Part shown: piece after piece, positions 4,587 through 52,706 of the stretch
How the letters are laid out: each line of letters begins with the position of its first letter
How positions within the stretch are numbered: the first letter of the stretch is position 1
Assembly: GCA_015956445.1 (NCBI GenBank)
Contig: WIUZ02000024.1
Coordinates: forward strand, 372,001-436,000
DNA length: 64,000 nucleotides
Origin: Thelephora terrestris
Taxonomy: Eukaryota; Basidiomycota; Agaricomycetes; Thelephorales; Thelephoraceae
Direction of reading: 5' to 3'
Translations under genes and position numbers: made by a program
Notes under the pieces: model-generated
Told to the model about the DNA's origin: nothing
Database searches by the model: none
Seen by the model: the letters and a program-made list of their open reading frames with translations, nothing else

Positions 4587-4913
4587 TCGTAGGAGGGTAC
4601 CAATTGGAATTTTAGCATTGTCCACCATTGTGCGTAGTGAACCCACGACGGTGTTTAGCCAGATCAACAACCATTAATATTCCCGCCAAAGGTGGGGGTA
4701 AAAACAACGATGTAGTGTATCAACCTCCAACATCCAGAACACAATATACTTTCCATCCCTCAAGGATGACATTCCTCTCGAAACAGGGTGCCCACGTGCA
4801 CACAAAATGGTGCTGGACGTTTGAGGCCGCTGACGTCGAAAAGTAAGATACAAATTACGCCATGGTACATAAGTATGCGGTTTACCATCGGACTCACATA
4901 CTACATCTGTGAA

Positions 4914-6497: not shown

Positions 6498-6894
6498 TGG
6501 GTTCAAGAGGTTCGTTGATCGCTGGATCGATAAAAGCCTACTGGACGTCAGTGAGTGCTCGGATCTTGCATACAATTCTGTTGGTCTTTCTAATACTCAC
6601 CACACTACAGCCAAAGTTTGTGGAGAGGGTTAGGCTGGAATAGTTCTGAGCAGAGGTGGAGGGCTTTGGATTGAAAGAGAAAGGGGGTTGCCACGCTTAC
6701 GCCATTGTACTAATCAAAGATTCAAAGAGTTCATAGCTAGTCGGCGAGCGCTATTTCTGCAGCAGAAGTCACGCCACAGAAAGGTGAGACGGAATCACAA
6801 TCCGGGCGGGGAATACATCCAGCAGTTCCGGTAAAGTCATGATCATGCCAACGCGGATTCCCTGTTTAGACTCCACGAGACTTTCTTGATTATA

Positions 6895-8014
6895 CATTCC
6901 CGGACCTAACGAAGGAGAGGTGGACCCAAAATGGAGCATTGGCCGGTGAGTTGTATTGGCATATAACGTATAACGTCCTCGATCTCTAAGCTTATGCAAT
7001 GCACTCCAGCGTCTTGTTCGGAGGTTCGCAACTTCTGCGTTCACAGGATAGATGGAGTGCTGATCCCAGCCATGCGCTCCAACTTGCCAGGCTACGCGTT
7101 TGGTTTGATTGTCGAAGCGTGCACGAAACATCAAGGAAAACACAGATCGGGTGAGACCGACCCAAGTGGACCCTGTTCAACGGGACTTGGAACCTCTCTC
7201 GTCATGCCTCTCACGATGTACAATCATTCGCAGAACTTATGTTCAATCACCCAGGGAAACGTCGGGTGACCGCTCTAGCACCATTCGGCAACCTCACAGT
7301 CACTCCAGAACGATCATCTGGATGCCACATTGAGATTACTTCTCCATGCGCCCGCCGGACGCCACTGTTCGCCCACCCGGCTTTCATCAAGAACCTGAGA
7401 CCTGGCACAGATATCCTCGAGGCAATGGTCAACTCCAGTGATGAGATTCAGATCATCACAGACCCTGCTTGGCCGTCTCGTAATGCACCCGAACACCCCG
7501 CAAAGGACGACAAAACGGAGAAGATAGGAGGTAGAGGGGTTGACGAGGGTCAATGAATGAACCTACTCCCAGCGCCAGGGGGTCCGACGACAACGTTCCG
7601 TTCTCCAGCCGTAATTCCGGCCCCTCATTTCAGACATGACACGGTGACCTTAGTATACTCCTCGGTGCACCTGCCTACTGGAATCCGACAATGCCTTGGA
7701 CGGTTACATTCTACGGAAAGATCCCACCGCGTTCGGAGGATCGGTCAGACAGGACGACGGGAATGGACACGCATGCTAAGTCTATGGTGGATCCGGTGTA
7801 AGCGTAGCGCCATGCCGACAGTGGCTGATAAGCCCGGATGGTCGACAGCTTTTGTTGACGGAGTGGTGGACTGCACCTAGTGGTGTGGGCCAAGGGAAGA
7901 TGGGGAGGAGGGTTGAAGAGAGAAGCAGATACGCTTGGCCTCGTCGGAACAAGCGGCGATTATTGTCCCACTAGCAGTTGAGCAGAAGACACAGAGGCGA
8001 CCAAAGTTGTGTTC
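6895..8014 (+). pseudogene. Decayed thioesterase-like copy
   Basis: DNA similarity to the gene at 3357-4586 is clear: GGTGGACCCAAAATGGAGCA at about 6920, the GGTTTGATTGTCGAAGCGTG segment near 7102, the EIQIITDPAWPSRNAP-coding part near 7445-7490, and a WSVTFYGKIP-like segment near 7700. The first exon with its ATG is missing, the middle of the protein is shortened (the HIRTLKSGRHYTNIYAEFRQE region of copy 1 is lost), and the frame shifts several times. I see no way to obtain a full protein by splicing, so I call it a host pseudogene. Confidence 0.7.
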
Positions 8015-8726: not shown

Positions 8727-10571
8727 CCTAGTTGCCACGACTCTCGACCATGGATGCAAACTCCCAGCAACAAAATGCGCAAGATGGCGTTCTCTCAGCG
8801 TTGAACGCAGCCATCGAAGCTCTGAACCGTGCAAAGGAGGCTTCATGTGTCAGATCTGTCAAGGCTGTTTTTGGCTCCGTCAGCGCCCTTCTCACCGTGA
8901 TCAGAGTGAGTTTCCTCCCAACCCACCTTTGTCGGCTTCTGACTAATATGAACAGGATTCGATGGCCAAAAGAAAAGATTTTGTCGAGCTAGGGCTGGCC
9001 TGTGCTGATATCTGTAAAGCCATCGACCGGGGGATGAACGGTCGACAAGCGGACAATTTCAACCAGTCTGTCTTTGAGGCGATCGAACAATTGACGACGT
9101 GAGTTGGACTAGCGGAAGTACATGTTGAGCCCGAATCACTTACCGTGGCTCCAATCGCAGGACCGTGTCAGAGATCCAGAGGAACGCCGACAAGTTGTAC
9201 GAGCGAGGCGCCATCTCTCGCTTTTTCCACGCGAAAAAAGACAAAGAGACGATCGCCGCCTGGAGGTCGGAACTCAACAGGATCCTTCATGTCTTTAACG
9301 TGCGTTCAGTCATCTCTTCACCTACATCGCCATCGCTAATAATCTGTCCCCAGACCGAACTCGCTCTCAATACTCATGTGTCAGTCTTGAAAGCCCAGAA
9401 GCTCGCTGTGGAAATCTACCGTACTGTAGTGGAACGCCGGGAAGGGGCTGACAAGGGGGACGAGACGGTGACACACGAAGTGGTTTTCAACCTTGGCACC
9501 CTCACGATCAGGGTATGTAATTCACGACGCGTGCCGATGCCTTTAGGGACAAGCCACTTACAGCCAATTCTTGCAGCTCGTCGTCGCGCTCAACCTCACT
9601 AAGAAGACCTTCAGCATCTGTTCTTACGGGAGGCTTCCTCTTCTTCCCGAGTTCAAGCTCGAATGCCGAACTGGAAGCTCTCAAGAGGGTATCGCTATCG
9701 AGATTGACGCGAAGGTTATCAAAGGAGCACTCAAGTTCTCCGTCAAGGACAAATGGTTGTTGTTGGACTGCGACGCCGCGGTATTGAACAAGAAATACAC
9801 CGGCACGGTCAAGTTGGTCCCTGTCGAGTGAGTGCTCCTTGCTACCAATCTTGTGCTGCCTGACGTTCACGGATACCTCAGCTTCTAGACCAAGGGTTTA
9901 TCTTGCCCGATCGAGCTCGTTTGAATCCCGAACTTCTGGCGTGGAATTACAGTGTTGTGATTGCGTACACTGGGCGACCGTCTGTAATATACGCACAGCG
10001 GACACTCAAATGCAGACGAATATTCGTGGACTTATAGCGAGGGTCGGGAACCCTCCGAAACTTCGCTCTCCCTTCTACGACAGATATATATACTTCTAGT
10101 CTAATCTATTCCTATGGACAGTCACCTACTACCGGAACGATGCAAACTGCTGTACTGAGCTAAAATGATGAAATTGTTTTTGTGCTATGTGATTATTTGA
10201 CGAACGGCAAGTGTGGCGTCGCCGATCACAATGATTACCTTGGGCCCTGTGATCCGGAAACTGGTAGCACACCCCACTGTAACTGTTCCTTCCGAGTTTC
10301 AGTTTTTCCCCGCTGCTCCCACTCGTCGAATTGACATTTCGGTTGTGCCTCTGCCCGATCCTGAACCCAATCACCCGCGATTAGCACTCAACTAGTCTCG
10401 GCCCCGTACGGCCTGATCTTCCTGATCACCTGTAGAATTGTGCTTTGGACCCTTGACTTAGGAGGTGAAAATCAGTGATCAAACCACCCGTCGCACTTGC
10501 CGCGATCACAAATGACAACCGACGGCCGTAGATCACTGCCCCGGCGCCCATTCCCACGGTTGAACAGACCT
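8727..10571 (+). repeat. Inverted duplication, copy 1
   Basis: From CCTAGTTGCCACGACTCTCG (8727) to about 10571 this sequence recurs in reverse orientation at 36378-38164 plus 42915-43048. It covers the whole helix-bundle gene and about 740 bp of its 3' flank. Similarity stops abruptly at both ends. Confidence 0.85.
8750..9831 (+). CDS. MLKL-like four-helix-bundle protein with beta-rich tail
   Basis: Five exons (8750-8905, 8956-9098, 9161-9299, 9354-9512, 9577-9831) join in frame to give 283 aa; all introns are 50-64 bp GT..AG. Residues 1-150 match the N-terminal helical domain common in Agaricomycete NLR-like and signalling proteins, which is related to the MLKL/HeLo four-helix bundle: EALNRAKEASCVRSVKAVFG, then DFVELGLACADICKAIDRGM, then QLTTTVSEIQRNADKLYERG, then AAWRSELNRILHVFNTELAL. 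In MLKL and HeLo proteins this bundle acts on membranes in cell death; that role is inferred here. From about residue 185 the protein is beta-rich (VVFNLGTLTIRL, FSICSYGRLPLL, FKLECRTG, IEIDAKVIKGALKF, KYTGTVKLVPVE) and I cannot assign a fold. No NTPase or kinase domain follows, so this is a compact two-module protein. A disrupted inverted copy lies at 37202-43025. Confidence 0.75.
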
Positions 10572-10763
10572 CCCTTAGCCACGCCGAGGTAGGGCTAACC
10601 GTCTCTTAACACCGCTGACGGAACTGCCACTGCATTCAGGAAACTAGCCGATACCTAATTCGGTAGACACGTGGCGCTGCTGCGTGCTGCGCTTGTGACC
10701 TTCTGACCAAAGTGATCCTGGAAGGTACACACTTCGGTTTGACCTCTATCAACAACCCTCGCA
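9832..10763. other. Non-coding 3' flank of helix-bundle gene
   Basis: No gene is visible. Most of it (to about 10571) is retained in the inverted copy at 36378-37200, including the stretch around GTGTTGTGATTGCGTACACT. The last 190 bp should hold the promoter of the gene at 10764. Confidence 0.5.
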
Positions 10764-11741
10764 ATGTCCGTTGTCATCGAGAATGGGACAATGAACGCGA
10801 GTGAGCTAGTGTCATCTCAGGCGTCTTCGAGTTTGATACCTCCGTCCGATTGGGACCTCTTGACGATCCCGCCAGAAATAACCCTTCGAATACGTGCGTT
10901 CCAAGGTCACAATCTCTACGGCCATTCACTGACATACCCCCTCGTAGTGGCATATCTGGATATCCCAGATCTAGCCTGCCTCTCATGCGCGTGTCCCCAG
11001 CTTGCTGTCCTCACCTCAGATCCAATCCTTCACAGGAATCGTTTGCGCTTAACTGCGCCCTCCAGGATCGCACATTCCCTGTTCGGTACGAGTCCAGGTG
11101 GTATCTTACTCAGACCTAGCGTCGGAGAGTTGTTCCAAAGAGGTATCATGAGGGGCTTGGGGATTGAAAGACAATGGAGGATCGGAGGATACATCTATAG
11201 TCCAAGGGTATGTGATGGGTTGCTGCGCTTTCCCCAAGGTTAACTCACCTAATAACAGATGGTACTCGTGCTTGAAAATACGCTTAGAATACACCGTCTC
11301 CGCGCCAAGAACCTCGTCTCTGCTGTCCTGCGCGGCCGTCTCCAGCCCTCGGGTCCAAGCGCGCTCGTCGCTTCATATTCTACCACTATACGGACCGATA
11401 TTCACGGCGTCACCGAAGGTTTGAAGAAGACCAAACCTGGCGTCGTGAGCCGCACTCTCTTGCCTACCATCCGAAGCCTCGGTTGGTGCTTCAAACGTGA
11501 CCAGGTCAGTCGAGTGGTTCGGGGTGCAAGCGGCATCGGAGCACTGTTCGTCAAACGGGGCTCTGCGGACGGTGAGACAGATTCTCCGCATCGTAGCGTG
11601 GCGACGTGGATTGAGAAGCAAGGACCGAAGTTGGTCCCTGATTCTAGCCCTGGGCTAGAGGTGGAGAGGACGAGACTGGCTCTGTGTCCTGATGTTGGGA
11701 AGATCATCCGGTTTTATGAAGGACTTTCTGTTGATGACTGA
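10764..11741 (+). CDS. Conserved fungal F-box protein
   Basis: Three exons (10764-10893, 10948-11207, 11259-11741) give 290 aa. The first intron (54 bp) falls inside the F-box: splicing yields LLTIPPEITLRILAYLDIPDL followed by ACLSCACPQLAVLTSDPILH, a canonical F-box. Downstream the protein has the segment SRIAHSLFGTSPGGILLRP and then GIERQWRIGGYIYSP, which I recall as conserved in single-copy fungal F-box proteins, unlike the fast-evolving F-box genes elsewhere in the window. It is probably an SCF substrate adaptor; the target is unknown. The start is the first ATG (CGCAATGTCC context). Confidence 0.75.
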
Positions 11742-13722: not shown

Positions 13723-16435
13723 ATGAAGAGAGAGCTAGAAAGGATCTCAGGTGCCGGCTCGGTTGACGTCGATTCTCCTCGTGCAAAGCGACGAAAAGAA
13801 ACCGCGCAAGCTGCGATGCCAGCCACTACCCCCAAATCGAATAACCTCGCGTCGGATCCCAGCGCGATCAAGTTGAAGCAGGACGCTCTTTCTCTCTGGT
13901 CGACAATCAAGGATGCGACAAACAAAGAGTGCGCTTTCTCTCCTCTCATCTCCTAGACGGTTCTTATAGCCGTTTTTTTGCTGCAGGGGTCGTCTGCTCT
14001 CGACGGAGTTCCTACGCCTGCCGTCAAAACGTCAGTACGCGGATTATTACCAACAAATTCAAAATCCAGTTGCTCTCGACGAAATCAAGTCTCGGATAGA
14101 AACCGGAAAGTACGCCAGCCTCGACGCAGTCAGACAGGACCTCGAACTCTGCTTCAAGAACGCCAAGAAGTATAACATGAAGGATAGTCCCATCTGGAAG
14201 GATGCAAAACACCTCCACGTATGTCTCCCGCTCTATTCCCATTGCAGATTTGGTCCAGCTGAGCTCTTCCAGAAACTGGTCAACAAGGAATACGCCCGAT
14301 TGACGGGAGAGTTTCCGGAAGACGCGAAACATGTGGATGCGGAGAACGACGGAGAGCCAGGATCTGGAGACGAAGGAGGCAAGAAGAAGAAGACACCCAA
14401 TCTCTCGCGGGTTCTCAAACTGCGTTTACAGAAGCTGGTCGACAAGACTGCTGACGAGTGCGCTTTCTTGCATTTTATCTCATACGGAGGCTCACTCTGA
14501 TCCTCTAGCGGACGGGTTATCTCTGCCGAATTCATGGAACTCCCCAACAAGAAACTTTGGCCTGACTACTACAAAGTTATCAAGAGACCTCAGTGTTTCG
14601 AGAACATCTTTGTACGCGTTTCCTGTCCAAAGGCCGACTTAATCTCACCTTGTGCCTCAGAAAAAGTTGAAACGGAAGGAGTACCATACAAGCGGCGACT
14701 TTTCCAGGGATGTTCAGCTTGTCTTTTCAAACGCGATGGAATTCAACGCCGAAGGGAGTCAGATCTACGGAGACGCGCAGACTCTGAAGGTGCGTTCCCT
14801 GGAGATTGGTATTTCTGCCCCCCGAGGCTAAACAGTGTGCCATAGTCCTACTTCCACCAGTCCATGTCTGATCTCCCTGCACCTTACTCCCTTCCGGAGT
14901 ACTCGCCGTCCACTGGAACCTCCAAGATTACGCTGAGGCTTCCTGGTGCTGGGGCTGCTTCGACCTCAACTATGAATACCCCGACGTCCATCCCTGTCAA
15001 GGGAGGGTCTGTAATGCTCAGAGTCCCAGGTTTGCCGAAAGACTCAAGTGCACCCACCACGATCAAGGCAGCAGAGCCAGAAACTTCTGCTCCCGCCCCA
15101 AGTACGAGTACTAGATCCAGAATGGCGAAGGAAGAAGCCGCAGTGGCTGAGCCAACACCAATTCAGCCTACTCCATCGACATCGAAGACCACTACCACCA
15201 CAACTCAACCACCTCGTATAATCTCTACTACCACAGCCACCACATCCTCTGTTCAAACAACTGGCCAACAAGTCACGGCAGCGCCTGTTCAGACCTACTC
15301 TACCCATTATCCAAATGCTTCCTATCAACAACCCACGGAACCTGGCAGGCCGACTCCAGTTACCCCATCCACAACCCAACATGCCACTTCCACCCCTTAC
15401 ACCCCTGCGGCGATCCTACCTACCTACCCCACCTACACTAATCCGGGATACACACCCTCCACCACGACCCCCCTCAACCCTCTCTCGAATCTCAATAACT
15501 ATGGATACGCATATGGAGGGACGGGGTTCGGCCCAGGCGCTACGGGGACGACACCTTACTCGACAACGAACGGAATTTCCTACACGAATGCGACTTACGT
15601 CAACCCCACCACTCCGTCTACACCAGCACCGTATTATGGCACCACTACAAGCACCACCCACAATGCAAAGGCAAACGTGAATGCGGTGACCGCCCCTGTC
15701 GTGACAAAGACCCCAGTTCCTGTGCCTCTGCGGACGTTCAGGACCGTGCTCCTCACGACGAGACCATGTGAACGGAGGTTGGAGCTGGATGTGAGGGAGG
15801 GGGTAAAAGTGTGGAGTGTGAGGTTGTTGAATAAAGAGAAGCGGCTCAGTATAAGTGGTGTCAAGTTCGACGTTCCTCCCCGATCGGTCGTCAACTCGAC
15901 TGTAAAGGTTGAGACGGGAGGTGGAGATCAAGAGGAGGAAGAGGAAGGGGATGTGAAAATGAATGAAGGCAAGGAAGCCGACGAGGAGCACGAAGATGAT
16001 GGGGATTACGAGGTTGAGGCTTCCCCGACCAAGCGCGGGGTCAAGGGCAAGAGGAAGGGAAAGGGAAAGGGCAAAGTTGGGAGACCGAAGAAAGTCAAGG
16101 TTGCACCCCCCCCTCCTGTCGTCGCCCCGACGACCCCGACAGTCCCTGTTGTGAGCACTGTGTTGGGAGAGGAAGATGTGACGGTGAAGATAAACAACAC
16201 CGTCGTTCCACTCTGTTCTCGTACGTCAACTTCCTCAGAAGAAGCAGCCGACGAGTCCGACGAAGAGGAAGATGGGGATACTGTCGCCGCGAACGGGAAG
16301 GAGAACAAGAACAAGAAGAGATGGGAATGGGATGTGGACATCCCGTTAGGATCGAGCGTTTTGGAGATTAGCGAGAAGGCAGGAGCGGTGTGGAAGGTCT
16401 ATGTGGATAGAAATTTCTTGTTGGATGGGCCTTAG
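13723..16435 (+). CDS. RSC4: RSC4-like tandem bromodomain protein
   Basis: Six exons (13723-13928, 13987-14218, 14273-14457, 14509-14611, 14661-14789, 14846-16435) join in frame to 814 aa. Two bromodomains are visible: the first with YADYYQQIQNPVALDEIKSR and the acetyl-lysine Asn in FKNAKKYN, the second with WPDYYKVIKRP and FSNAMEFN. A basic linker and a long Ser/Thr/Pro-rich, low-complexity stretch follow, then a conserved C-terminal part (RTFRTVLLTTRPCERRLELD and KRWEWDVDIPLGSSVLEI). This layout matches Rsc4, the acetyl-histone-reading subunit of the RSC chromatin remodeller. For intron 2 the acceptor at 14272 is chosen over one at 14247, because the latter would leave a 29-bp intron. The tail holds acidic tracts and an AT-hook-like KGKGKVGRPKK. 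Confidence 0.85.
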
Positions 16436-20060: not shown

Positions 20061-22326
20061 CTACAGCAGCATTTCCATCTCTGCAGGTTCAGAGGTGGAA
20101 ACGGCTTCTGAGGGTTGACTAAGGCTCATCCCAACCGTGCTTCCAACATCCACATCCAACGACCCAAAGACGTGTGGGGATTCATCTCCACCTCCCGGTC
20201 CCTCGACCCCTCCTTCACCTTGACCCATATAACCCCCGCCCCCAGGGGTACTCCCTCCGCCGAACTCACTAGCGCTAGCCCTAACCGAATTCTCGTGCCC
20301 AATCACGCTCTCCGCGAATTCCCCAACCCCCCCGAACTCTCCGAATTCTCCCTCCGGCTCCTGACCCATAAGCATCTCCAACCGCTCCTCCTTCAACCAG
20401 TACGGAATCTCGAAATCCCGGATCTCCTCGATCTCAGGGTGTATCTTCAGCCCGAAAGCGGTAAGATGCCGTTGCGTCCGTTGGGTCTTCCGGTGTGAAG
20501 TCAAGGAAGAAGAGCGCAGAGCGGTAGTCATGAGGGTCCCCAAAGAATTGTATGTAGGGTAGAAGTGAGGAACTTTAGGATGGGTTTTGCGGGAGAGGGT
20601 CACCGAGGCTGGGCTGGTCGGTTCCACCTCTTCCCCGGTATCATTGTCGACGTAGTCCCCATCTTCCGCTTCCTGAGCCTGAGCTCCCCGTCGTGGTCGC
20701 TTGGAGGGCCGAGGGCTTTCCAAATCCACGACGGAGGGTGACTCTGTGATCGAGGTTCGTGTCCTCGGCCTTGTACCGGAAGAGACGGGCGTCGTAGGCG
20801 CCGTGCCAGCGCTTCGTGTGCTCACTCGCCTCGGAGGAGGTTCGGGCTTCGGCGTCTGCGTTCGGATCTGGGTCGGAGGTTGCACTTGAACGAATTTTGG
20901 GAACACCCCATTCCCGTTTCCGTTCGCGGATGGAGACCGCTGTTGCGGGAACTTGATCCTCAGCTTTAGCTTTTGTTGAGGTAGTGATGTGGCTGCTTCC
21001 TCCACCGCCTCCTCTGGCTCCAGAGATGCGCTCGGGCGCCTACTACCCCCAGCACTGGCACTAGTGAGCTCTTTAACCACCTTATCAGGAGGCAGCAGGA
21101 CTCGATAGCGCTCCTCAAGGCCCGCGGCGGTTTCGAGGATCTCTACCCTCCGTCGTTCACCCTCGTTGTGTAACGCTGCGCCGTTGACGTGAATCCCGGG
21201 GAGATCATGCAGCCCTGTACCGACCTCGTCACCGCTGGGGATGAGTCCGTCTGCAGGCTCGTCGCCCTCCTGCGAAGCTGCGGTACCGGGGGGATGGAAC
21301 AGGGAGGCGGGTAGCGTAAGGAAAGCAGTCCCGTCCATGCCACGCAGCTGTTCGATACGCTCCTTGAGCTTGTATTGTTCGTGCTTGAGTTTCTCCTTTT
21401 CTCTCAGCCTCTGACGCTTCTCGAACGTCTCGTATTTGCGATGTCGTTTCTCGTAGATCGCATCCGAAGTATCGGCCAGGTTCTGCGTGCGAACAAGACG
21501 TCGTCAACGCTCGCAAGGAAGCGAGCAGAGTTGAATGTATGAACGTACTTCTTCGAACCCTGCCCGAGGCCTGAACCTGCTTCCAACAATTGCATCTTCA
21601 GATAACGCCGAGAACTCGGGGGTCTCTATGAGTTGTTGCTTCTTGTAGGCGGCTGTTACTTCTGGCCGGTCGAAATAGCGCTCGTAGCCTTTCTTCTCTA
21701 TATCCAGTCCGTCTCGTGGAACGGCCGCGGTAGAATCGAGGGTTATCGCCGAGGAAGAAGCGACAGCAGCAGCCGAGGAAGGCTTCAAGGAGGGGATAAG
21801 TTTTGAGTTCGTTGTCAAGATGAGGGAGACGTCTGAGAAAACGAGAGGATCTTGCTCATCTGTAGAGAAGAGATAACGAAGCGCATATAGTCAGTTACAC
21901 GAGATAATCAACGCAACAGAGGAGGGAATACGCAAAACGCGAAGCCGCACGCAAAACGCGTGCAGCTCGGCGGGGCGATAGTGATCACACACGCCGCACA
22001 CACATGCTCCGTCCCAACCGGAGCGGTTTTGTATAAGGGGAGTTCCCAGAGGAAGAACGAACAAGCTCACATTTTCGTTTTTGAGCGTCCAAGATGATTG
22101 TGTCGACATCGGCACTGCCGAGTCCGGGTCCGCCCCGCCTTGACCGGGAGGGTAAGACCCGTTTCTGAGGTGGGCGAGGGGTCTGGTGGTCTGTACGCGC
22201 CGGAGTCGGTTTTGGGGTTTCCGTACTTGCTGGTGGGTGGAGGGCTGAGGTCTTGCGGAAGGGCGTTGAGGAGGTCCTCGCTGGCGTTGCGGGTTTCTTC
22301 CCTTGGGAGACGGAGGATACCATCAC
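20061..22326 (-). CDS. SAS4-like chromatin protein (probable)
   Basis: At least three exons are used. The N-terminal exon (from 22326) ends GSADVDTIILDAQKRK. An intron with donor GTGAGC near 22068 and acceptor near 21860 joins it to EQDPLVFSDVSLILTTNSKL. A further intron near 21490-21550 leads to a strongly basic and acidic helical block (YEKRHRKYETFEKRQRLREK, then KLKHEQYKLKERIEQLR) that resembles the conserved domain of SAS complex subunit 4, the scaffold of a MYST acetyltransferase complex. The rest (20061-21338 encodes 425 aa) is mostly disordered with basic and acidic tracts, plus a short conserved-looking part (KVPHFYPTYNSLGTLMTTAL) and a Gly-rich tail. The family call rests on the helical block alone. 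Confidence 0.55.
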
Positions 22327-28185: not shown

Positions 28186-29639
28186 CTACGCCTCACTGGT
28201 AGTCCCCGACTCCTGTTGAGACTGTCCTTGTTGGGGGTTTTCTTGAGGTTGGGGAGGAAGCTTTACTTCCGGAGGTTCCGTGTGCTCATGCAAAGGGGCA
28301 GTGCCGACGAGGTATCGCAGCACATCGGTCAACGTGATGATGCCAAGCAGACGACCCTTCCTCCCACCGCGCTTCTCGTCTTCTTCTCCCTCGACGACGA
28401 CCAACCGATGCACCCGGCGCTTGTTGATCAGTTGGAGAAGCGTTCCAAGCGAATCTGAAGCGGTGCAGATAACAACGCCAGGGAAGTCCGGTGAGCGCTC
28501 ATTGAGCGCCTGAGCGATCGTCAAGTCCAGTGACTGATAAGCTCCTAATCGTACCAATGTCTGCCATGTGGAGGCGACGAAATGCGCAAGCAGGATTAGT
28601 ACGTCATGATCATTTGTACGACGAAGAACGTGACGCACGATGACATCGACCGTTTCGTACAGATTTACGACAATCCCTTCTTCATCAATAATTGGTACGG
28701 CTGAGATACCACGCCCGGAGAATTCATGGACGACGTCAAACACGGGCGTTGACATTGTTGCTGTTGCCAAGGGCCAGAAGGGTGGAGAACCCTCCGGGGC
28801 ATCCTTGGGATCCACGACATAAGTCCCGATTCCTAGTTTACGAAGGGGAAGATGGAGTAGAGCCACTTCTTTCGTACACTAAGGGGAAACATTAGTGGCT
28901 TTGTCTTGGTCAAAGGGAAATAGAGAACACACGTTGATGGAGATGAATTTGAGAAGGCGATATTGGGTCATTATCGAGACTATCATCTCGTGCCCAGTCT
29001 CTGTGTCGTTATCAAGGAGGGGGAGACGGCGTGCGTGGGTTTGCATGAGAAGGGATGCGGCCTCATAGAGCGATTGGTCTGGTGATGCCCAAAGGAGCGG
29101 AGGGGTGTTTACGCCGAGGGCCTTTTCAATGTCTGAAGAGAGTGGGTCAGACATGTGGGCCGAGTTTTGGGGGAATGGCTTGCCTCGCAAAGACTCTAAT
29201 CGTAGAGTCTCGACGTCTGTGACGGCGGTGGCGAAGTTGGAGGTGTGGTAGTAGTATTGGATAAGGTGGATAATGTCGGAGACGGTGAGCATTCCGGCGA
29301 AACAAGATTTTTCGCTGTTCCATAGCGGTGCGGATACGACGCCTGGATGAGATCAGTGAAGTGAATTGGAAGCGATTGATGAGACTGACCGTTGAGAAGA
29401 AAACATTGGAGGGCTTTCTTCACCTCGAGCTTCGTGTCGAGGACGATAAGCCTGAAGGAAACAGGGAAGACATCGTAGCAGGTTCTACCCTTGAGATAGT
29501 TTCTGAGCATGTTGAGCGCGTTGTCGTGGCTCTCTTGACCCTGAACCGGAGGTAGCTGAGATCCGGCACGTCTGCGAGTGGTAGTGGCACGTCGGAGCAT
29601 CCTGGGCGAGTTTGAAGAGATGGCAGCGCTCATCGTCAT
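28186..29639 (-). CDS. SNF4: SNF4, AMPK/Snf1 kinase gamma subunit
   Basis: This is a multi-exon gene with the four CBS repeats of the AMP-activated kinase gamma subunit: ALNMLRNYLKGRTCYDVFPV and LDTKLEVKKALQCFLLNG, then FAGMLTVSDIIHLIQYYY; a second block (PDQSLYEAASLLMQTHARRL); a third (FSGRGISAVPIIDEEGIVVN, LYETVDVI then TLVRLGAYQSLDLTIAQAL); a fourth (LGTLLQLINKRRVHRLVVVE, GRLLGIITLTDVLRYLVG). In fungi it controls the Snf1 kinase in glucose derepression. An intron of 78 bp (28561-28638, GTGCGTC...GGCAG) interrupts the third repeat. It is a multiple of three and stop-free, so a transcript keeping it would still be readable. The C-terminus is Gln/Pro-rich. First Met at 29639. Confidence 0.9.
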
Positions 29640-29921: not shown

Positions 29922-32330
29922 ATGGGTGAAACTCAAATACCGTTTTCATCTGTCATCGATTCGCAGCCCGCCCTCGTCTCGTCCGTCCCTTTACTGGTCG
30001 GTGAACTCTTAGCAGAAGCGGTCTTGTCACAACCCTCGGCAGTCAACAACGTGGTTGTGGAGGGTCCAGTCCAGCCGGGAGCCCCTCCAAACAGGGACGC
30101 TTTACTTTTTCTCCTCCCATTGCTGATTGTACTCTCCACCTTCCTCTTCCTAATCCTTCTCTTCCTCGTTTTCGTCATCCTTCTTCGCAGGCGCCGTGGA
30201 ATACGCTTACGAGATGGCGATGGTCCCATTGACTTGAGCAGGGAAGATCTTGTCGAAGGTGAAGGTGGTCTCGAGGGCGTCGAATCGAGATGGTTAGAGT
30301 CGGTCAGCGAATCCGAGAGGCGGACGTATCTCCGGGCGAAGGGTACGTCCGTTATAAACAACTCCGTACCGTGTACATCGACATCTAACTGAACCTCCGC
30401 GCCCTCAGATTACCAACTACAGTACCCACCAAACTCCTTACCAACCGATATCACCCTTTCCCAATTCCTCTCCATCCAAGAAAAGGGAGTAGCTGCCTGG
30501 TCGTTCGAACCGGACTTGGAAGCCATGCATTCGTTGTTAGTTCACGCCCGGACCGAAATCACATTCCTACCCGACCCCTCCTCTGCTTCTTCCGTCCAGT
30601 CCAATCTTCCGCTACCCAAATTGAACGAAGTATATTATTGGGAGGTCAAGATGTTCGACCTTCCGCCCACCACAAATGTCGCAGTCGGGCTGGCGACGAA
30701 GCCGTATCCCTCTTTCCGACTACCTGGTCACGCTCGTTTCTCGATCGCCTACCATTCTAGCGGAGACAAATCCTACAACTACCCGTTCACTTCTGCCACG
30801 TTTAACTCTATCCTCAAGGAAGGAGACGTTCTAGGTATAGGTTACCGTCCTCGCACCGGCACAGTGTTCTACACCAGGAATGGCCGGAAGATGGATGACG
30901 CGTTTACCGGGCTCATGAACTACAACTTGTTTCCAACCGTGGGCGCTGACGGACCTTGTAGTGTCCACGTGAATCTCGGTCAGGCTGGGTTCGTCTTTAT
31001 CGAGGCCAACGTCAAGAAGTGGGGCTTAGCACCAAGTGTCGGAACCCTCGCCCCGCCTCCTGCGTACGGTGCCGAACGTGGCAGTATTCTCCTTGCCGCT
31101 GGTGATTCTCGACCATCAAGTCGGCATCAACCACGTCAGGATTACTCGAACGGTTCATCTCCCACACGCCGCCCCACACACCGATCACGCCGACCGAAGC
31201 GCTCGACTCTTGCCACAGGAAATCTTCCCCCGTCCCCGCTGAGCAACCCTGAGAGGACACCTCCACCACCGTTGACCCCACCCCCACCAATCACGCCCAT
31301 CGATGAGTTGTCGGAGGTTGGTGCCCAAGGGAACCCTGGCCCAGGTCCGTCGAGTTCTGGACGATATATCTCCCCAACGGACATGCCATTCCACACGCCG
31401 ACGGCGAGGAATGATCTACCACCCTCCCCTCCGAGCCGAAGAACTGACGACAACGAGGTCTTTGAGTCTGACGAAGACTCGTCCCCCTCACAAACATCTT
31501 CGAGCCCAAATCCTCGTCGCAACCCCAACCTTAATTTGAGCCAGGACCAGGGCACTGTTCGAAACCGGAGTCGGTCACCCGCGCCGTCGTCAGGTGCGAA
31601 TCCGTTTAACACCCCTCGAGGTATCCGTTCTTCACAAACCCACTCGATAGTAGTATCCCACCACCACCATTCCTCTTCGACTTCCTCACACAAACGGCGC
31701 GTGTCTGCTTCTCGACTTGGTTTAGGACAGGCACAGTCAGTTGTGCCAGATGAGGATGAGGCGTTGGGACAGGAGGAGCTGGCGGACTTGGATCGTCAGG
31801 GTCAGGGCTTGAAGCAGAGGCAGAGGGATGAGATCATTGTTCAACCACCGCCGGATTCACCCTTGAGTCCCAATCCACCAACCCCTCACGCAAGGGACAT
31901 TGGGATGAGGGCATTCGCGATAAGCCAGAGGGAACTGAACCCGCTTGCTCAACGTAATGGACGAGCGAGCGGGAGTCGGCTCGTTGACACCATCGAGCCT
32001 TCTGACGTCCTCGACTCCGACATAGATTCGATCTCGAGGGATGATGATCTTCAGCGCACTCGCGAGCCCATTTCGGAAGGTTCCACAGAATCAGACCGGG
32101 ATGCTGCGAGACGACCTCCAGACTACTCTCCGTTGGATTCGTTTGCGTACCCGGATGGCGTGCATCTCGATCTGCCGACAGACGCTGTAGTGGCGATGTT
32201 GGAAAACGGTGCTTTGCCGGCGAATTATGTTGGGGGTAGGGGGGATGGGAGAGAAGGAGAGAGTAGGGAGGAGAGGAGGGAGAGACGGAGAAGGGAGAGA
32301 CAACGAGAGAGTGGCAGGAGGAACCGGTAG
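29922..32330 (+). CDS. SSH4: SSH4/EAR1-type Rsp5 adaptor (TM + SPRY + PPxY)
   Basis: Two exons (29922-30342, 30409-32330; intron 66 bp) give 780 aa. A single strong membrane segment (residues about 60-88, LLFLLPLLIVLSTFLFLILL onward) is followed by a basic stop-transfer RRRRG. A SPRY/B30.2-like domain follows from about residue 165 (YYWEVKMFDLPPTTNVAVGL, FRLPGHARFSIAYHSSGDKS, GYRPRTGTVFYTRNGRKM, GADGPCSVHVNLGQAGF). Two PPxY motifs (PPAY after the SPRY domain, PPDY near the C-terminus) could bind WW domains of the ubiquitin ligase Rsp5. This is the layout of yeast Ssh4 and Ear1, which guide endosomal and vacuolar sorting of membrane transporters. The rest of the tail is long, Pro/Ser-rich and disordered, ending in an Arg/Glu-rich run. 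Confidence 0.88.
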
Positions 32331-35896: not shown

Positions 35897-35990
35897 GCAG
35901 GTCTTCAACAGGCCTTCAACGCACTTTCATAGGTCTTCAACAGGCCTTCCACAGGCCTTCAACAGGCCATCAATAGGTCTTCAACATGGT
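35897..35990. repeat. Imperfect minisatellite, about 12-bp unit
   Basis: About eight imperfect copies of AGGCCTTCAAC/AGGTCTTCAAC follow the 3' end of F-box A. They are non-coding. Confidence 0.75.
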
Positions 35991-36377: not shown

Positions 36378-38435
36378 AGGTCTGTTCAACCGTGGGAATG
36401 GGCGTCGGGGGTAGTGATCTACAACCAGTTTAGGCGTCAGTTGTCATTTGTGATCATGGCAAGTGCAACGGGTGGTTTGATCACTGATTTTCACCTCCTC
36501 ATTAAGAGTCCAAGGCACAATTCTACAGGTGATCAGGAAGATCAGGCAGTACAGAGCCAAGACTAGTTGAGTGCTAATCGCAGGTGACTGGGTTCAGGAT
36601 CGGGCAGAGGCACAATTGAAGGGTCAATGGGAGCAGCGAGAAAAACTGAAACTCAGAAGGAACAGTGGGATGTGCTACCAGTTTTAAAACCACGCCGCGT
36701 TGCAAGACTGGGTACGTGTGCGGAAAACCCTTGTAAGGAGCTCGGAGTTGAGCAAGCCATGAACTGCGCACGCAGGCATGATGCCCAAGGTAATCATTAT
36801 GATTGATGCCAGACTTGCCCTTCATCAAATAATCACATAGCACAAAAACAATTTCATCATTTTAGCTCAGTACAGCAGTTTGCATTGTTCCGGTAGTAGG
36901 TGACTGTCCATAGGAATAGATTAGACTAGGGGTATATAGTATATCTGTGTAGAAGGGAGAGTGAAGTTTCGCAGGGTTCCTGGCCCTCGCCATAAGTCCA
37001 TGAATATTCATCTGCATTTGAGTGTCCGCTGTGCGTATATTACAGACAGTCTCCCAGTGTACGCAATCACAACACTGTCATTCCATGCCAAAAGTAAAAG
37101 TTTGGGATTCAAACGAGTTTGATTGGGCAAGATAAACCCTTGGTTTAGAACCTGTGGTATCCGTGAACGTCAGGCAGCACAAGCTTCATAGCAAGGAGCA
37201 CTCACTCGACAGGGACCAACTTGACCGTACCGGTATATTTCTTGTTCAACACCGCAGCGTCGCAGTCCAACAATGACCATTTGTCCTTGACGGAGAACTT
37301 GAGAGCTCCTTTGATAACCTTCGCATCAATCTCGATAGCGATACCCTCTTGAGAGCTTCCAGTTCGGCACTCGAGCTTGAACTCGGGAAGGAGAGGAAGC
37401 CTCCCGTAAGAACAGATGCTGAAGGTCTTCTTAATGAGGTTGAGCGTGACGACGAGCTACAAGAATTGGCTGTAAGTGGCCTGTCCCTAGAGGCATCGGC
37501 ACGCGTCGTGAATTACCCTGATCGTGAGGGTGCCAAGGTTGAAAACCACTTCGTGTGTCACTGTCTCGTCCCCCTTGTCAGCCCCTTCCCGGCGTTCCAC
37601 TGCAGTACGGTAGATTTCCATAGCGAGCTTCTGGGCTTTCAAGACTGACACATGAGTATTGAGAGCGAGTTCGGTCTGGGGACAGATTATTAGCGATGGC
37701 GATGTAGGTGAAGAGATGACTGAACGCACGTTAAAGACGTGAAGGATCCTGTTGAGTTCTGACCTCCAGGCGGCGATCGTGGCTTTGTCTTTTTTCGCAT
37801 GGAAAAAACGAGAGATGGCGCCTCACTCGTACAACTTGTCGGCGTTCCTCTGGATCTCTGACACGGTCCTGTGATTGAAGCCACGGTAAGTGATTCGGGC
37901 TCAACATGTACTTTCGCTGGTGCAACTCACGTCGTCAATTGTTCGATCACCTCAAAGACAGACTGGTTGAAATGGTCCGCTTGTCGACAGTTCATCCCCC
38001 GGTCGATGGCTCTACAGATATCAGCACAGGCCAGCCCTAGCTCGAGAAATTCTGTTCTTTTGGCCATCGAATTCTGTTCATATTAGCCAAAAGCCGACAA
38101 ATGTGGGTTGGGAGGAAACTCACTCTGATCACGGTGAGAAGGGCACTGACGGAGCCAAAAACAGTGTCACGAACGCGTGACATAATAGCCAGAATCACAC
38201 AGATAGTTAAAGACATTGGTCTTATTCGCAATAATAAAAGTACAAAAATAACCGGCGGAAGTTACAAACTCAAACAAGGACAAAAGGATCTACATCGCAA
38301 GCACAGTCCTGAGCGAACGGACAACAATGAGCGAAATGGTGGGGGTTATGAACGCTCTGAGGACAATACGAGTAAACCCGAGTCACCGGATCTACCCAAC
38401 ATTCTCGACATCCCAACACATCATGATACAAACTA

Positions 38436-41811: not shown

Positions 41812-44341
41812 GTTGGCTGTGTGTAACAAAGGGAGGTTTGTTGGAAGACCAGTCATCCAACCCCCTTTGGTTATATACCAAATGCCACGCCCCTTTCACG
41901 ACTCAGGAGTTGAGTCATCATTTCTATTGTTTACTGCGCATGACCCACATGACATCATATGCCCCTATTTCTTAGTCATATGCTCCCCTTTTGCCATTGG
42001 CTGTTAGTCAGTCATATCCACATTCCTTCCGAACATTCCCAGGCTACGTCATGCTTTGTAATTGCTCTGTAATGCTCTCAAATTGCTATTGGCCGCCACA
42101 CTTTCGTTTATCAGCTGATAATTTGTAGCATTAGTCACCACGTAACGCACAGACCATGCAGTGCTGCGCACGGACCATGTTTGTCTGTGTTTGTATCTTT
42201 AGGGTAGTTACATGTAACGGTCACATCACAAATCTAAGTAGTATATATACTCAGAGTAGTTTAGCCTGTACTCCTTAGATTTGTTATCATCAGACTCTCC
42301 GTGACCTCTACTGCTGTGTGCTTAGAGCAAGAGTGCCTGAAGACCCTTGTCTCCTTCTTTTCTCCTCTTCTCCAATCTAGTCCGTGAAGAGACTTCCGAT
42401 ATCCCTGGGTTTGCAACAGGATTATAACTGTGTGTTTGCCCCCTGCGTGTGTAAGGTTTGGATAGCAAGAGTGCTATTGAACTGTAGAGGTCGCGTCGGC
42501 CTGACACACTGAGAGCGTCCTAGCGACTGTCTACTTCAGTGTTAGCCCAGCCTTCTACTTCCCTTCCCCTAAAGTTCATCTGACTACCAACGTTCATACT
42601 CATTGTCCCGCCCTCATCATTCTCTGGTGGGATATTCCAACTGAACTCCCTTATTCGATTATAGAATACCTCGTTCAATTCGAACGACTCAGCGACCAAG
42701 ACTTCGAGCCGTTCGTTCAGCAGTTAACACAGTTCTGCCAAGACTACCACTCGCCCGTTCATCCCTATCAAACAGAGTCACCACTCTCGCTTGATATTCC
42801 CCCGCCTCTCCTCTCTACACCCGGTACTCCACTCAAAAACCGTCCCGACACCCCTTACCCCTCCGCTAATCCTCTAGCGCCCCACAGAAAGTAAGCAGGC
42901 CCACAACCCTGACAAACAGCCTTGACAGATCTGACACATGAAGCCTCCTTTGCACGATTCAGAGCTTCGATGGCTGCGTTCAACGCTGAGAAAACGCCAT
43001 CTTGCTGCTGGGAGTTCGCATCCATGGTCGAGAGTCGTGGCAACTAGGAGCCAGGGATAGATGATTTTGCGAGGCTCCCGATGGCGGGAATGAGCGACAC
43101 CCAACTGACTTGGTCCCGGCATGGTGAGTGATGCAGGGATGCCAAGCCTCAATACCACCAAGAGCAACACAAACGATTCGTCGAAGAGGCTGAGCGCTGA
43201 ATAGGGATATCCGGTACAGTCACCCCTCTCCTCTCCACCGGAATTTTACCACCGCCTCGAAGTTGCCCGGGTTTCTTCTCAAGTCCACAGCCTTCCCTGG
43301 TCTCGTCCATTGCGCCTGCAAGCAACAGAATGCACACAGCAATGACTCTTGGCGACTCCGTTGACTCGCAGGACAGTTATATAATGCTGCCCGCTTCCCA
43401 GTCCTTTCCCTCAAACCACCACCATCGAGAGAGCGTCCAGCAAGGCGGACGCAATTTCATACTTTTGCATCAGATATATTCTTCGCGGATCGACACAACC
43501 AGCGGTGAGCGTGTCACTCAAAATCGTTTTTGCACTTGAACCCTGTTCTCGTCAAGGTCACCCTTATAGGCCCAAAAGGCAACAAAGTACTACTCCACCT
43601 GTCCCGAACCCCCGAATCAAGTCAAACAAATCCCTCCATCGCCTGTTGCCCCACGAATATCAGTGCCCGGGACTTGAAGCAGAAAGATAACGATCGGTTT
43701 CACCCTCCGGCCACGGCCTTCAATCTGTTACAATACAGATGACTGTTTCTGCCACAGAACTGGTACCGAAACGGTCCGTCGACGACTCCTCACTTCGTTC
43801 ACCATACATTTGCTCCATCCCCAACGAGATCCTTATACGAGTCATGCAACTCACCGTGTCTGATCTGTACCCCCTTCAAAACACCTTTTACACAGCTCTC
43901 AGACTATCGCATGTCTCCTGACACTTCAAAACCATTGCTGACAGCGCCTCCGAACTTTGGACCCTCATCTGCCCTAAGTTTCCGTTGAAGAACGATCAAG
44001 TCCTGTTTTGGCTGGATGTACTTGCACGTTCCAAGGCAAGATTGATAGATGTCGTGGTCAATGCGCAAGCGAAAACTACGGGAGCGACCCAGCCATACGA
44101 GGTTTTTATTGCAGCAGTGATTGGTCACTCTGACCGTTGGCGCAAGTTCGAGATCACGTCTGATACGTGGGAGCCAATAGCCCTCTTCCTGGGTCAATCA
44201 CACCATCTGGTTCCTCTGCCGAGGCTGGAGGAATTAGTCCTCTACCGCTCAGAGAACCCTGGTCGAAGGACCAACTGGGAAGTCCAAGGTCTGGCACCCA
44301 AGTTTCTGTCAGGGCCACTCTACCCCAACAACTACCAGTGC

Positions 44342-49606: not shown

Positions 49607-52336
49607 ATGCCCTACTCCGCCCCTTCGTCTCCATCTCTGTCGTCTCTCTCTCTTTCCGGCACCACGGCTACGATGACCCTGACCGGCCCACATATGTCTC
49701 ACAGGCGGACGCGCTCACTCACTTCCCTCTCCGATGAACAAGGACCGGGCGCTTTCGTTTCCTTGGGTTCTCTGCCCAAACGAAAGCCTACCCAGAAAAA
49801 GACCATGTTCCACTTCAATGAGGAACACGACCAACAAGAAGAGATACACGACGTCCTTGTCCGAAATCCTTGGAAGACATTTCATCCCTCTCTCTTTCCC
49901 TCTCTCCGACTTGATCAGGTCGAGGAGCAATTCCCATATTCACCTTTACTTTCCCCTCTGTCTCCTACAGGGCCTTTGCATTTCCAAGCGCCTGTGAGGT
50001 CCCCGATTCCGGTGAACTCCTCACCGATCATCCTTTCCAACGGGAAACCTCTCAAGTCTTCTTTCAAGTCTTCTTCCTCTCCTCACATCTCCCAGGTCAC
50101 CCATCTACGCGATCAATCCATCCCTACTCTTCCCAACGCCCCCAAGAATGTCCACTTCAATAAGCGTCTCGAATCAATCCGCTTCTTCAAACAGCTTGGT
50201 AAGCCAGCTGACATCTCTAGGCCCACTGGGGAAGAGTCCGAATCCGAATCCGAGACAGAGGCAGATCTTTCCTTCCCACAATCTCTTGCTCCTCCCATTC
50301 AGATTCAGATTGATACCGATCGATCCACAACTCTCCCCAACACCTCCAATTCTCACGCCAATATCTACGTCGAGACTTTGTCCCTTGCAAAGCTTCTACC
50401 TGCTACCATCCACGGGTCTATTCTCGTTCGTAATGTCGCTTTCGAGAAGCAAGTTGCTCTGAGATTTACAATCGACAACTGGGAGACAACCTCAGAGGCC
50501 CCATGCAAGTACTCCAATTCCCTTTCCCACCTCCCACCTCCCTTCCCTGGATCGAGGGTTGTGGGTGATGCAGTCGATCGACTTGCCACTGGAGAAAGCT
50601 CTCAGGAGTTCCAGTGGGATCGTTTTAGCTTCGTCTTCCACCTCGAAACTTACAGGCGGAAGCTCACTGAGTGCAACCTCCTCTTTGTTGGGAGGTTCAC
50701 CGCAACCGGTGTTGGTGAATGGTGGGACAACAACGACGGCCAGGACTACCGCGTTTTCTTCATGCGTCCTCCCGCTACCGCTCCGAGCTCGATGGAGCCT
50801 ACTCCTGCCACTCCCAGTGTCCCGGTCGAGACCAGCGTTCCACCCTTCCCCAAAATTTCTCCTGTGATTCCTAGCCCGCCTTCCCTTCCTCTTCCTCCAA
50901 CCTCTCCTGCCTTGAGCAACGTATCGCCTGATAGTCAACCTGACGATACTTCTCGGCCCCCTCTGACTGAGCGTGGTGTTTTCTCTGGAGGGGGTATGGG
51001 GCAAGGCGGAGAAGGAACCACCCAACAATCCGGAAGCTCTCAGACAACGACACAAGAGCCAACCTCGAATGAAAACGGTTCTCCCGGCGGTGAGCAAGGC
51101 GGCCACTCGAATGAGCGTAGTCCGGACCAGGACGAAGCCCCAAGGGACGACGATGACCGAGCTCTTGTCCCGGTAGCATCCACTAACTGGCCTTCGCGTA
51201 TTGCGAACGAGATATTGGACCTCACCGATCAAGTTGCGTCAGTCGCTCTTTTCGGTCCGATCGGCGTCGGAAAGACTTTCGTGGCCCGTAGCGTCCTGGA
51301 CCACGAACGAACCAAAGCAAAGTTCGGTGACAACCGTTACCTGATGCGCTGTGATGACCTCGCAAACTCGCTGGAGGGTTTCACCGAACGCCTATTCGAT
51401 GCCATCCACACAAACGCAATGCAAGTCGAGTCGCGCCTTCAGTCCTCTCCTCCACTCATGCTGTTGCTCGATGGCGTGGATTCCGTCCTCGATCCACTGG
51501 CTCCTGATGCTGAGGGGATTTATGCAAGGATAGTAGAAATCGGAAGCTACGAACACGTCTGCTTGGTCGCTACCAGCAGAACGTATCCAGATATTCACGG
51601 ATTCCATCGGGTCGAAGTAACACCACCCCCCGAGGCCGGCGCACGAGACATCTTCTACAGCCTCTGTAACTTGGCCAGATCGCCTGCGGTGGACGCGCTC
51701 ATTGCGACACTTGACTCCCACCCGTTCTCTATCGAATTGGTCGCTCGGTATACACGTGAGAACAGTTGGGACGAGCAGATGTTGTTGAAGGCGTGGGCTG
51801 ATCAGAAAGGCGTACTGAGAATCAGCTATTACCAGAGTCTCAAGGACGCGATTGAGCCGGTGTTCTGCTCTCCGATGATCGAAGGGTTAGGAACCATGGC
51901 TCGTGATGTACTTAGGGCGATCGCATCCTTTCAATCTGGGATTAAAGAATGTCAACTGGAGGGGATCTTTCGCGGAACGGGCGGTGTAGGGGAAGTGATT
52001 GATGTGCTTTGCAGATCCTCCCTTGTTCATCGCCGGGACGGGGTTCTGAAGATGCTTTTGCCACTCCAGTTCTACTTTCTAAAGTCTATGATCGTATATG
52101 CGGAAACGGAGGAAGTTATCAAATGGGGTCTTGATTGTATGCCTGCACAAGGCGGTACGTCTTCCTCGCTGAATCCATTTCACGGTTGTTGGGTGACAAT
52201 TTTTCCAAGTGCCCACTACCTATACCCAAGGACCACCAGATGGTTGGTTGTTACATCCCTCCCCCGTACGTCCCACCATCCACCGCCCAAAGAAGAACTG
52301 GATCAGAAGACTGCCGAAAATCATAAAGAGAAGTAA
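49607..52336 (+). CDS. PP1 glycogen-targeting subunit fused to a STAND/NB-ARC-like NTPase
   Basis: This is a single open frame of 909 aa with no intron needed. Residues 180-184 (KNVHF) form an RVxF-type motif that docks protein phosphatase 1. Residues about 253-385 are a CBM21 glycogen/starch-binding domain: GSILVRNVAFEKQVALRFTI, DNWETTSE, WDRFSFVFHLETY, GEWWDNNDGQDYRVFF. Together these define the Gac1/Pig1/PPP1R3 family, which brings PP1 to glycogen. After a 130-residue disordered linker comes a P-loop NTPase: Walker A GPIGVGKT (550-557), DLTDQVASVALFG just before it, Walker B LMLLLDGVD (617-625), a sensor-like CLVATSR (652-658) and a following helical/winged-helix-like part (to about 830). 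This matches the STAND/NB-ARC NTPases of Agaricomycetes. No WD40, TPR or ankyrin repeats follow, although the frame may be spliced into 3' sequence to about 52706. Gac1-type proteins normally end soon after CBM21, so the fusion is unusual. Confidence 0.85.
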   Translation: MPYSAPSSPSLSSLSLSGTTATMTLTGPHMSHRRTRSLTSLSDEQGPGAFVSLGSLPKRKPTQKKTMFHFNEEHDQQEEIHDVLVRNPWKTFHPSLFPSLRLDQVEEQFPYSPLLSPLSPTGPLHFQAPVRSPIPVNSSPIILSNGKPLKSSFKSSSSPHISQVTHLRDQSIPTLPNAPKNVHFNKRLESIRFFKQLGKPADISRPTGEESESESETEADLSFPQSLAPPIQIQIDTDRSTTLPNTSNSHANIYVETLSLAKLLPATIHGSILVRNVAFEKQVALRFTIDNWETTSEAPCKYSNSLSHLPPPFPGSRVVGDAVDRLATGESSQEFQWDRFSFVFHLETYRRKLTECNLLFVGRFTATGVGEWWDNNDGQDYRVFFMRPPATAPSSMEPTPATPSVPVETSVPPFPKISPVIPSPPSLPLPPTSPALSNVSPDSQPDDTSRPPLTERGVFSGGGMGQGGEGTTQQSGSSQTTTQEPTSNENGSPGGEQGGHSNERSPDQDEAPRDDDDRALVPVASTNWPSRIANEILDLTDQVASVALFGPIGVGKTFVARSVLDHERTKAKFGDNRYLMRCDDLANSLEGFTERLFDAIHTNAMQVESRLQSSPPLMLLLDGVDSVLDPLAPDAEGIYARIVEIGSYEHVCLVATSRTYPDIHGFHRVEVTPPPEAGARDIFYSLCNLARSPAVDALIATLDSHPFSIELVARYTRENSWDEQMLLKAWADQKGVLRISYYQSLKDAIEPVFCSPMIEGLGTMARDVLRAIASFQSGIKECQLEGIFRGTGGVGEVIDVLCRSSLVHRRDGVLKMLLPLQFYFLKSMIVYAETEEVIKWGLDCMPAQGGTSSSLNPFHGCWVTIFPSAHYLYPRTTRWLVVTSLPRTSHHPPPKEELDQKTAENHKEK

Positions 52337-52706
52337 AGACTATAATCTCGATTCCTCATTCACCATTGCTGACCCTGTTGTTTACCCGGTAGGGTTTCTT
52401 GCTCTCTTTCGCGGGCAGATAGCGCCCACAGCCCAGACCGACTCACAAGCAAATACTGTGAATATCTCCCTCACCCCCCTCGAAGAAAAACCTGCGAATA
52501 TTCCATCCACCGCCGAACGAGAAGATTGTCCTAATATCCCGCCTACCATCATACAAAAAGATCTCACAAATATCCCGCCTACCGTCGTACAAGAAGATCT
52601 CACGAGTATGTCGCTCTCCGTAGTGCAAGACGTTCCAAGCACCCCACTTTCCGCCCCAGAGAAACGGACCCCGCCGGAGATGGTAGCATACGAGATCGAC
52701 TGGTGA
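52337..52706 (+). other. Possible 3' coding exon with 36-bp repeats
   Basis: One frame (open from before 52337 to the TGA after EMVAYEIDW near 52706) encodes four imperfect 12-residue repeats of the type NIPPT(I/V)(I/V)Q(K/E)DLT (DNA about 52495-52640). The repeats keep codon phase, which suggests coding. It could be an alternative C-terminal exon of the fusion gene; GTACGTCTTCC at about 52155 is a candidate donor. I could not fix the acceptor. Confidence 0.35.

Follow-up and report, generated by a model that had tools for sequence, protein, structure and literature searches.

A reading frame in Thelephora terrestris that likely joins a glycogen-targeting phosphatase subunit to a STAND-like NTPase

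Introduction

Does a single fungal gene combine a glycogen-targeting subunit of protein phosphatase 1 (PP1) with a STAND-type nucleoside triphosphatase (NTPase)? The question is raised by a long open reading frame (ORF) on the plus strand of a 64,000-nucleotide (nt) stretch of Thelephora terrestris contig WIUZ02000024.1 (here termed the window), in which a first-pass annotation made from the sequence alone had described an unbroken frame of 909 amino acids (aa) carrying both modules. ORF listing and translation confirmed this frame, which runs without interruption from the ATG at 49607 to the stop codon at 52336; measured from stop to stop, it comprises 948 codons and is the longest of the 87 frames of at least 130 codons in the window. 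The analysis reported here suggests that the CBM21/PP1-targeting half and the NTPase half are likely joined in one protein and that its C-terminus probably differs from the one first read. If the two halves do form one protein, control of an energy store (PP1 on glycogen) and a STAND-type nucleotide switch would be found in a single chain.

Results

The CBM21 half and its sugar-binding residues

The CBM21 domain proposed by the first-pass annotation passed the profile test clearly, with a Pfam CBM_21 score of 74.7 bits against a curated cut-off of 28.9. When the whole frame was compared with the PDB by phmmer, PPP1R3C (two chains), PPP1R3B, and PPP1R3A were the best four of five distinct sequences at an E value of ≤1, and with a 225-aa CBM21 piece the same proteins (PPP1R3C again twice) were the best four of six sequences at an E value of ≤10. 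For the crystal structure of human PTG (PPP1R3C), the passages of PMC9582199 on ligand contacts name N177, F180, E181, K182, Y203, and D214 as the sugar contacts of site II and R187, W193, Y196, C235, W246, N248, and N253 as those of site I. All six site II residues are identical here, as read from the phmmer alignment.

The sequence motifs point in the same direction. The GVNK motif, described in a passage of PMC11520303 as needed for glycogen accumulation in the case of a C. albicans protein, is present as G270, V274, N276, and K281. Part of PMC9287172 gives VxNxxFEKxV and WxNxGxNYx(I/L) as CBM21 motifs of glycogen-targeting subunits; the first is matched exactly by VRNVAFEKQV, whose start lies together with the GVNK motif in GSILVRNVAFEK, and WDNNDGQDYRV comes near the second but inexactly, with D replacing the second N and V replacing the final I/L. 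The sugar part of glycogen targeting by the N-terminal half is thus well supported, by profile and residue matches.

The putative PP1-docking stretch

Upstream from the CBM21 domain, an RVxF motif (KNVHF) was found at 50144 to 50158, as the first-pass annotation had stated. PTG contacts PP1 via V85, F87, L95, H99, and F101, according to the interface passages of PMC9582199; aligned by eye, their counterparts in KNVHFNKRLESIRFF would be V182, F184, L188, R192, and F194, and the spacer between the RVxF motif and the second hydrophobic site is four residues shorter than that of PTG. By itself, the RVxF pattern carries no significance, occurring at three places in the protein and at least once in 1,161 of 2,000 shuffled sequences. 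The pattern RVxF followed by LxxIRxF occurred in only 1 of 2,000 shuffles and was devised post hoc, with the sequence already seen. Of the predicted PP1/glycogen-targeting function, the sugar part stands on profile and residue matches, and PP1 docking of the N-terminal half is less surely supported.

The NTPase half

The complete P-loop (GPIGVGKT) and Walker B motif (LLLDGVD) claimed for the second half were both located by motif inspection. The Walker B consensus of STAND proteins is of the hhhhD[GAS]hD type, and MLLLDGVD conforms to it. Walker A, Walker B, and a TSR sensor-like motif follow one another in order, and their patterns were present in 42, 5, and 177 of 2,000 shuffles, respectively. 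The best Pfam match was NACHT (Table 1), closely followed by the AAA families AAA_22, AAA, and AAA_16. NB-ARC matched much more weakly (E value of 0.28; 10.9 bits versus a cut-off of 23.5), and an NB-ARC label was dropped in favor of NACHT-like, given the NACHT E value of 1.6e-4. A PDB sequence search with the NTPase alone returned 26 weak matches, mostly AAA/P-loop proteins (best E value of 0.04; NLRP6 at 1.3), and scans with NCBIfam and PADLOC gave weak matches only, those from NCBIfam lying far under the curated cut-offs. Within the 909-aa frame, nothing C-terminal to the NTPase core matched any Pfam family at an E value of ≤1, TPR, WD40, ankyrin, and HEAT repeats included; Pfam likewise detected none of the canonical N-terminal effector domains of NOD-like receptors (NLRs). 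Searches for relatives of the NTPase gave 1 pattern match in the viral_contigs collection and 25 in genome_contigs, and a search for relatives of the CBM21 region in viral_contigs gave 1, none of them confirmed; since these collections hold viruses and prokaryotes, the blank results say little about fungi.

Several results weigh against these assignments and have to be set beside them. Site I of PTG is identical at only four of seven positions in the phmmer alignment, with Y196 replaced by T, C235 by V, and N253 by D. When the 44 aa surrounding the PP1 motif served as a phmmer query, PP1 regulators were absent from the result, the sole matches being galectin-3 chains (E value of 1.7). NACHT, although the best Pfam match, is below threshold (E values of 1.6e-4 to 1.7e-4; 22.0 bits versus a cut-off of 26.7), a single-sequence fold prediction of the NTPase alone was unusable (mean predicted local distance difference test score of 34), and the codon score of the final third of the NTPase is negative. 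The STAND-type identity first proposed is moderately supported by the NACHT match and the ordered motifs, and we describe the module as STAND-like rather than as a proven NACHT member.

One gene or two across the linker

Whether the two halves belong to one gene depends on the 142-codon linker between them. The frame that connects them contains no stop codon in the linker, whereas the two remaining forward frames have 4 and 11. At the stop rate of the DNA outside long frames, openness over this length would be expected by chance with a frequency of 0.0027; in simulations with the linker's own dinucleotide make-up the linker was open in 370 of 20,000 sequences, and 949 of 20,000 placements of 142 codons across the entire window, its coding parts not excluded, were free of stops. 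A codon score for which 11 further long frames of the window served as the training set (4,527 codons; 10 of the 11 were scanned with Pfam, of which 5 matched at an E value of ≤0.01, 3 of these above the cut-off) was +9.4 bits per 100 codons for the linker frame versus +1.0 and −3.0 for the other two forward frames, and amounted to 10.8 for the N-terminal part, 8.3 for the CBM21 domain, and 1.8 for the NTPase. Since chance alone would leave the linker open in about 0.3 to 2% of cases, one gene is likelier than two, and we regard a single gene as quite probable on these grounds.

Two adjacent genes that share a frame by chance would require that a Gac1-like gene ends in the linker via an unrecognized intron and that an NTPase gene follows, its start possibly being a linker methionine such as that of MEPTP or MGQGG. 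Several observations fit this alternative. The two halves of the linker are unlike in composition, and their synonymous-only codon scores (−2.1 and 2.9 per 100 codons) do not rise above background, so that the coding signal of the linker comes from its openness and amino acid content; one other frame scored 24.6 in the synonymous-only test, above the linker frame. This test is too weak for judging the linker, and its result is not in the linker's favor. A lax scan gave 75 GT..AG pairs with the donor in the linker, 50 of which would shift the frame, and one frame-shifting pair (GTATGG...CAG, 50 nt, 50994 to 51043) passed the strict scan. Another point against a single gene is that the minus strand, too, is open across the linker, a 246-aa frame (50492 to 51232) lying opposite the CBM21 domain and the linker. 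On the other side, besides the absence of stops, two unrelated genes would share a frame by chance in about one-third of cases; the only other linker pair that passes the strict donor and acceptor criteria, 87 nt long, leaves the frame intact, and neither strict pair has a CTRAY branch match, although a laxer pattern accepts ATGAC in the 87-nt pair. Taken together, we consider two genes unlikely. The fusion first proposed can be graded as likely, not proven, given a frame that is open throughout and a linker whose openness is improbable by chance.

The minus-strand frame at 50492 to 51232 also indicates that this region is poor in stop codons on both strands.

A probable intron and second exon at the C-terminus

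The codon score of the exon 1 frame is positive to about 51800 and negative over the final 350 bases; the negative stretch begins already within the NTPase. The frame one over is free of stops and scores 12.4 at 52400 to 52549 and 15.2 at 52550 to 52699. On the basis of these codon scores and the open neighboring frame, the C-terminus as first read, ending at 52336, was rejected. In its place, exon 1 is probably followed by an intron and an exon 2 ending at 52706, giving a predicted protein of 990 to 1,014 aa.

Two candidate introns lead into the same exon 2 frame (Table 1). Intron A would give a protein of 1,014, 1,007, or 1,004 aa with acceptors at 52209, 52230, or 52239, respectively; it was missed by the strict scan because of its AAG acceptors or, for the CAG acceptor, a branch match 43 nt away. 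Intron B, which the strict scan did recover, would give 990 aa. Depending on the intron, the final 60 (A) or 23 (B) codons of the 909-aa frame are probably not coding as read. The exon 2 frame scores 7.5 at 52212 to 52703, compared with −7.5 and −11.1 for the other two frames, and the part that is coding under both models (52392 to 52703) has no stop and scores 11.4 per 100 codons over 104 codons. From 52212 onward, this frame was open in only 25 of 20,000 simulated sequences. The codon scores do not decide between the introns, whose position is unsettled, a further point against the gene model as drawn: the segment that is coding only under B (52157 to 52265 in the frame first read) scores −6.4, and the two segments of the exon 2 frame that are coding only under A score 11.3 over 18 codons (52212 to 52265) and −3.9 over 42 codons (52266 to 52391). 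The 165-aa exon 2 frame matched no Pfam family at an E value of ≤1. The tandem repeat that Tandem Repeats Finder detected within it has a unit of 36 nt and is thus in frame.

The falling codon score also bears on the idea that a normal Gac1 gene has recently captured the NTPase half as a nonfunctional passenger. In favor of this idea, the score drops over the length of the NTPase, turning negative in the final third, and no receptor repeats were detected. Against it, about 320 codons run without a stop or frameshift, the Walker motifs are intact, and a further exon in a coding frame lies beyond the NTPase. We consider it the least probable of the alternatives.

Table 1. Predicted features of the candidate fusion gene and its protein
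Feature	Position	Strand	Basis or remarks
Proposed fusion gene, exon 1	49607..52154	+	849 codons + 1 base; extends to 52265 with intron B
PP1-docking-like stretch KNVHFNKRLESIRFF, RVxF + hydrophobic second site	50144..50188	+	Aligned by eye to PTG
CBM21 domain, aa 250-383	50354..50755	+	Pfam CBM_21, E value 9.1e-21; PPP1R3C structures 7qf7/7qm2
GSILVRNVAFEK, GVNK motif + start of glycogen-binding VxNxxFEKxV	50414..50449	+	Motif inspection
WDNNDGQDY, CBM21 site I motif	50723..50749	+	PDB alignment, motif inspection
Linker, 142 codons	50765..51190	+	First half Pro/Ser-rich; second half Gly/Ser/Gln/Thr-rich, acidic
NACHT-like P-loop NTPase match, aa 546-658	51242..51580	+	Pfam NACHT, 21.9-22.0 bits (below cut-off)
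Walker A, GPIGVGKT	51254..51277	+	Motif inspection
Walker B, LLLDGVD	51461..51481	+	Motif inspection
Candidate intron A, GTACGT donor	52155..52239	+	Alternative ends 52209 (AAG), 52230 (AAG), 52239 (CAG), all same frame
Candidate intron B, GTACGT...CTGAC...TAG, 127 nt	52266..52392	+	Recovered by strict scan; same exon 2 frame
Probable exon 2 including the stop, shared by both models	52393..52706	+	Starts at 52210, 52231, or 52240 under intron A
Tandem repeat in exon 2, unit 36 nt (12 aa), 2.3-2.7 copies	52522..52630	+	Tandem Repeats Finder

Other features of the window

Elsewhere in the window, 8865 to 10524 and 36435 to 38164 are inverted copies with six pieces that are 87 to 96% alike, apparently of one decayed gene whose frames are broken by stops. 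Its pieces look reminiscent of the N-termini of fungal NLRs; the two that were scanned matched no Pfam family. As possible sources of close paralogues of the NTPase, the repeats gave only weak tblastn matches (37276 to 37151 and 9835 to 9876; E values of 0.13 to 4.8). Adjoining the repeat at 8865, the segment 8779 to 8870 has a 98% inverted partner at 42914 to 43005. On the minus strand, 770 to 2364 and 4903 to 6596 hold duplicate F-box-like frames (pieces 73 to 83% alike, Pfam matches below the cut-off), and 3473 to 4560 and 6970 to 7989 beside them are also duplicated (81 to 88%); another F-box-like frame, likewise below the Pfam cut-off, lies on the plus strand at 10743 to 11240. Bromodomain, SAS4-like, CBS, and SPRY proteins, all above the Pfam cut-offs, are encoded at 13970 to 14497, 20064 to 21503, 28189 to 28878, and 30393 to 32327, respectively. 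An 11-nt unit is repeated about eight times at 35898 to 35986, and a tRNA scan found none.

Discussion

We propose that one gene encodes a PP1 regulatory subunit of the Gac1/PPP1R3 kind, of about 1,000 aa, with an added STAND-like module, a reading that we hold to be somewhat better than even. The open frame, the CBM21 domain, its sugar-site residues, and the Walker motifs are observed directly; beyond these, we infer a single transcript, PP1 binding, nucleotide binding, and a gating step. In this proposal, the N-terminal RVxF-type stretch would dock PP1, the CBM21 domain would keep the protein on glycogen, and a low-complexity linker would lead to a STAND-like P-loop NTPase module in which no receptor repeats were detected. 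Nucleotide binding might then cause the module to self-associate or change shape, so that PP1 would be clustered or gated on the glycogen particle. A more specific version is that the STAND module follows NLR logic with PP1 recruitment to glycogen as its N-terminal output, the active, oligomeric switch assembling or releasing a phosphatase on the storage polymer in place of a cell-death effector; we offer this nucleotide-switched phosphatase tentatively, as a rather doubtful suggestion.

The same domain order might instead belong to an NLR-like immune protein whose CBM21 domain either senses glucan or acts as a decoy toward an attacker that targets glycogen metabolism. The best match of the NTPase, NACHT, speaks for this, but Pfam detected none of the usual repeats (TPR, WD40, ankyrin, HEAT), and the CBM21 domain is N-terminal, in the place of an effector, whereas in the portions of PMC12258605 that deal with binding-type extra domains these are mostly C-terminal. 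The sugar site and probably also the PP1 stretch are retained, and a decoy would not need both fully. The decoy idea is weaker than the switch idea because the sugar site is retained and C-terminal repeats were undetected, and an immune function of this sort appears quite unlikely.

If the two halves form one protein, one could test whether metabolism, and not immunity alone, is regulated by STAND modules, and a phosphatase recruiter would join the outputs of NLR-like proteins. The CBM21-STAND arrangement was not found in searches of the open-licence PMC literature, which excludes fungal protein databases; within this scope, the first-pass annotation's claim that no protein of such a layout has been described agrees with these searches. 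No pairing of CBM21 with NACHT, NB-ARC, or NTPase was found there; PPP1R3 together with NACHT led, by title and among the matches listed, to human or animal studies, and broader searches showed no such fusion in the titles among the matches listed. The words glycogen, carbohydrate, and CBM are absent from the main texts of PMC9815663, PMC4986451, and PMC12258605, and the first two of these words from PMC10197012, where CBM was not sought. A CBM21 protein of 1,007 aa is listed for the basidiomycete Ustilago crameri in a section of PMC11546739 that does not mention an NTPase.

Among known systems, NLRs with noncanonical or integrated domains, as portrayed in parts of PMC12258605, resemble the protein in carrying an unusual domain on a STAND-type core and differ in that their extra domains are named mainly as zinc finger, SPRY, and kinase domains, mostly C-terminal. 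According to the domain counts in that source, 185 noncanonical domains occur in 378 NLRs of Sordariales, and each of 170 of the 185 is confined to between one and three proteins; fusions of unusual domains to NLR cores are thus not rare in fungi, and the present one is less surprising. Fungal NACHT/NB-ARC NLRs share the NACHT-like P-loop core with its Walker A and B and TSR sensor-like motifs, whereas the T. terrestris protein is under the Pfam cut-off and has no detected canonical repeats or N-terminal effector domain. With PPP1R3C (PTG) and yeast Gac1p it has in common a CBM21 domain (with site II residues identical to those of PTG), the GVNK motif, and, as a candidate shared feature, a putative RVxF-type PP1 stretch N-terminal to the CBM21 domain. 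It differs from both in what it adds after that domain: a linker leads to a STAND-like NTPase, which is followed by a tail containing a short repeat.
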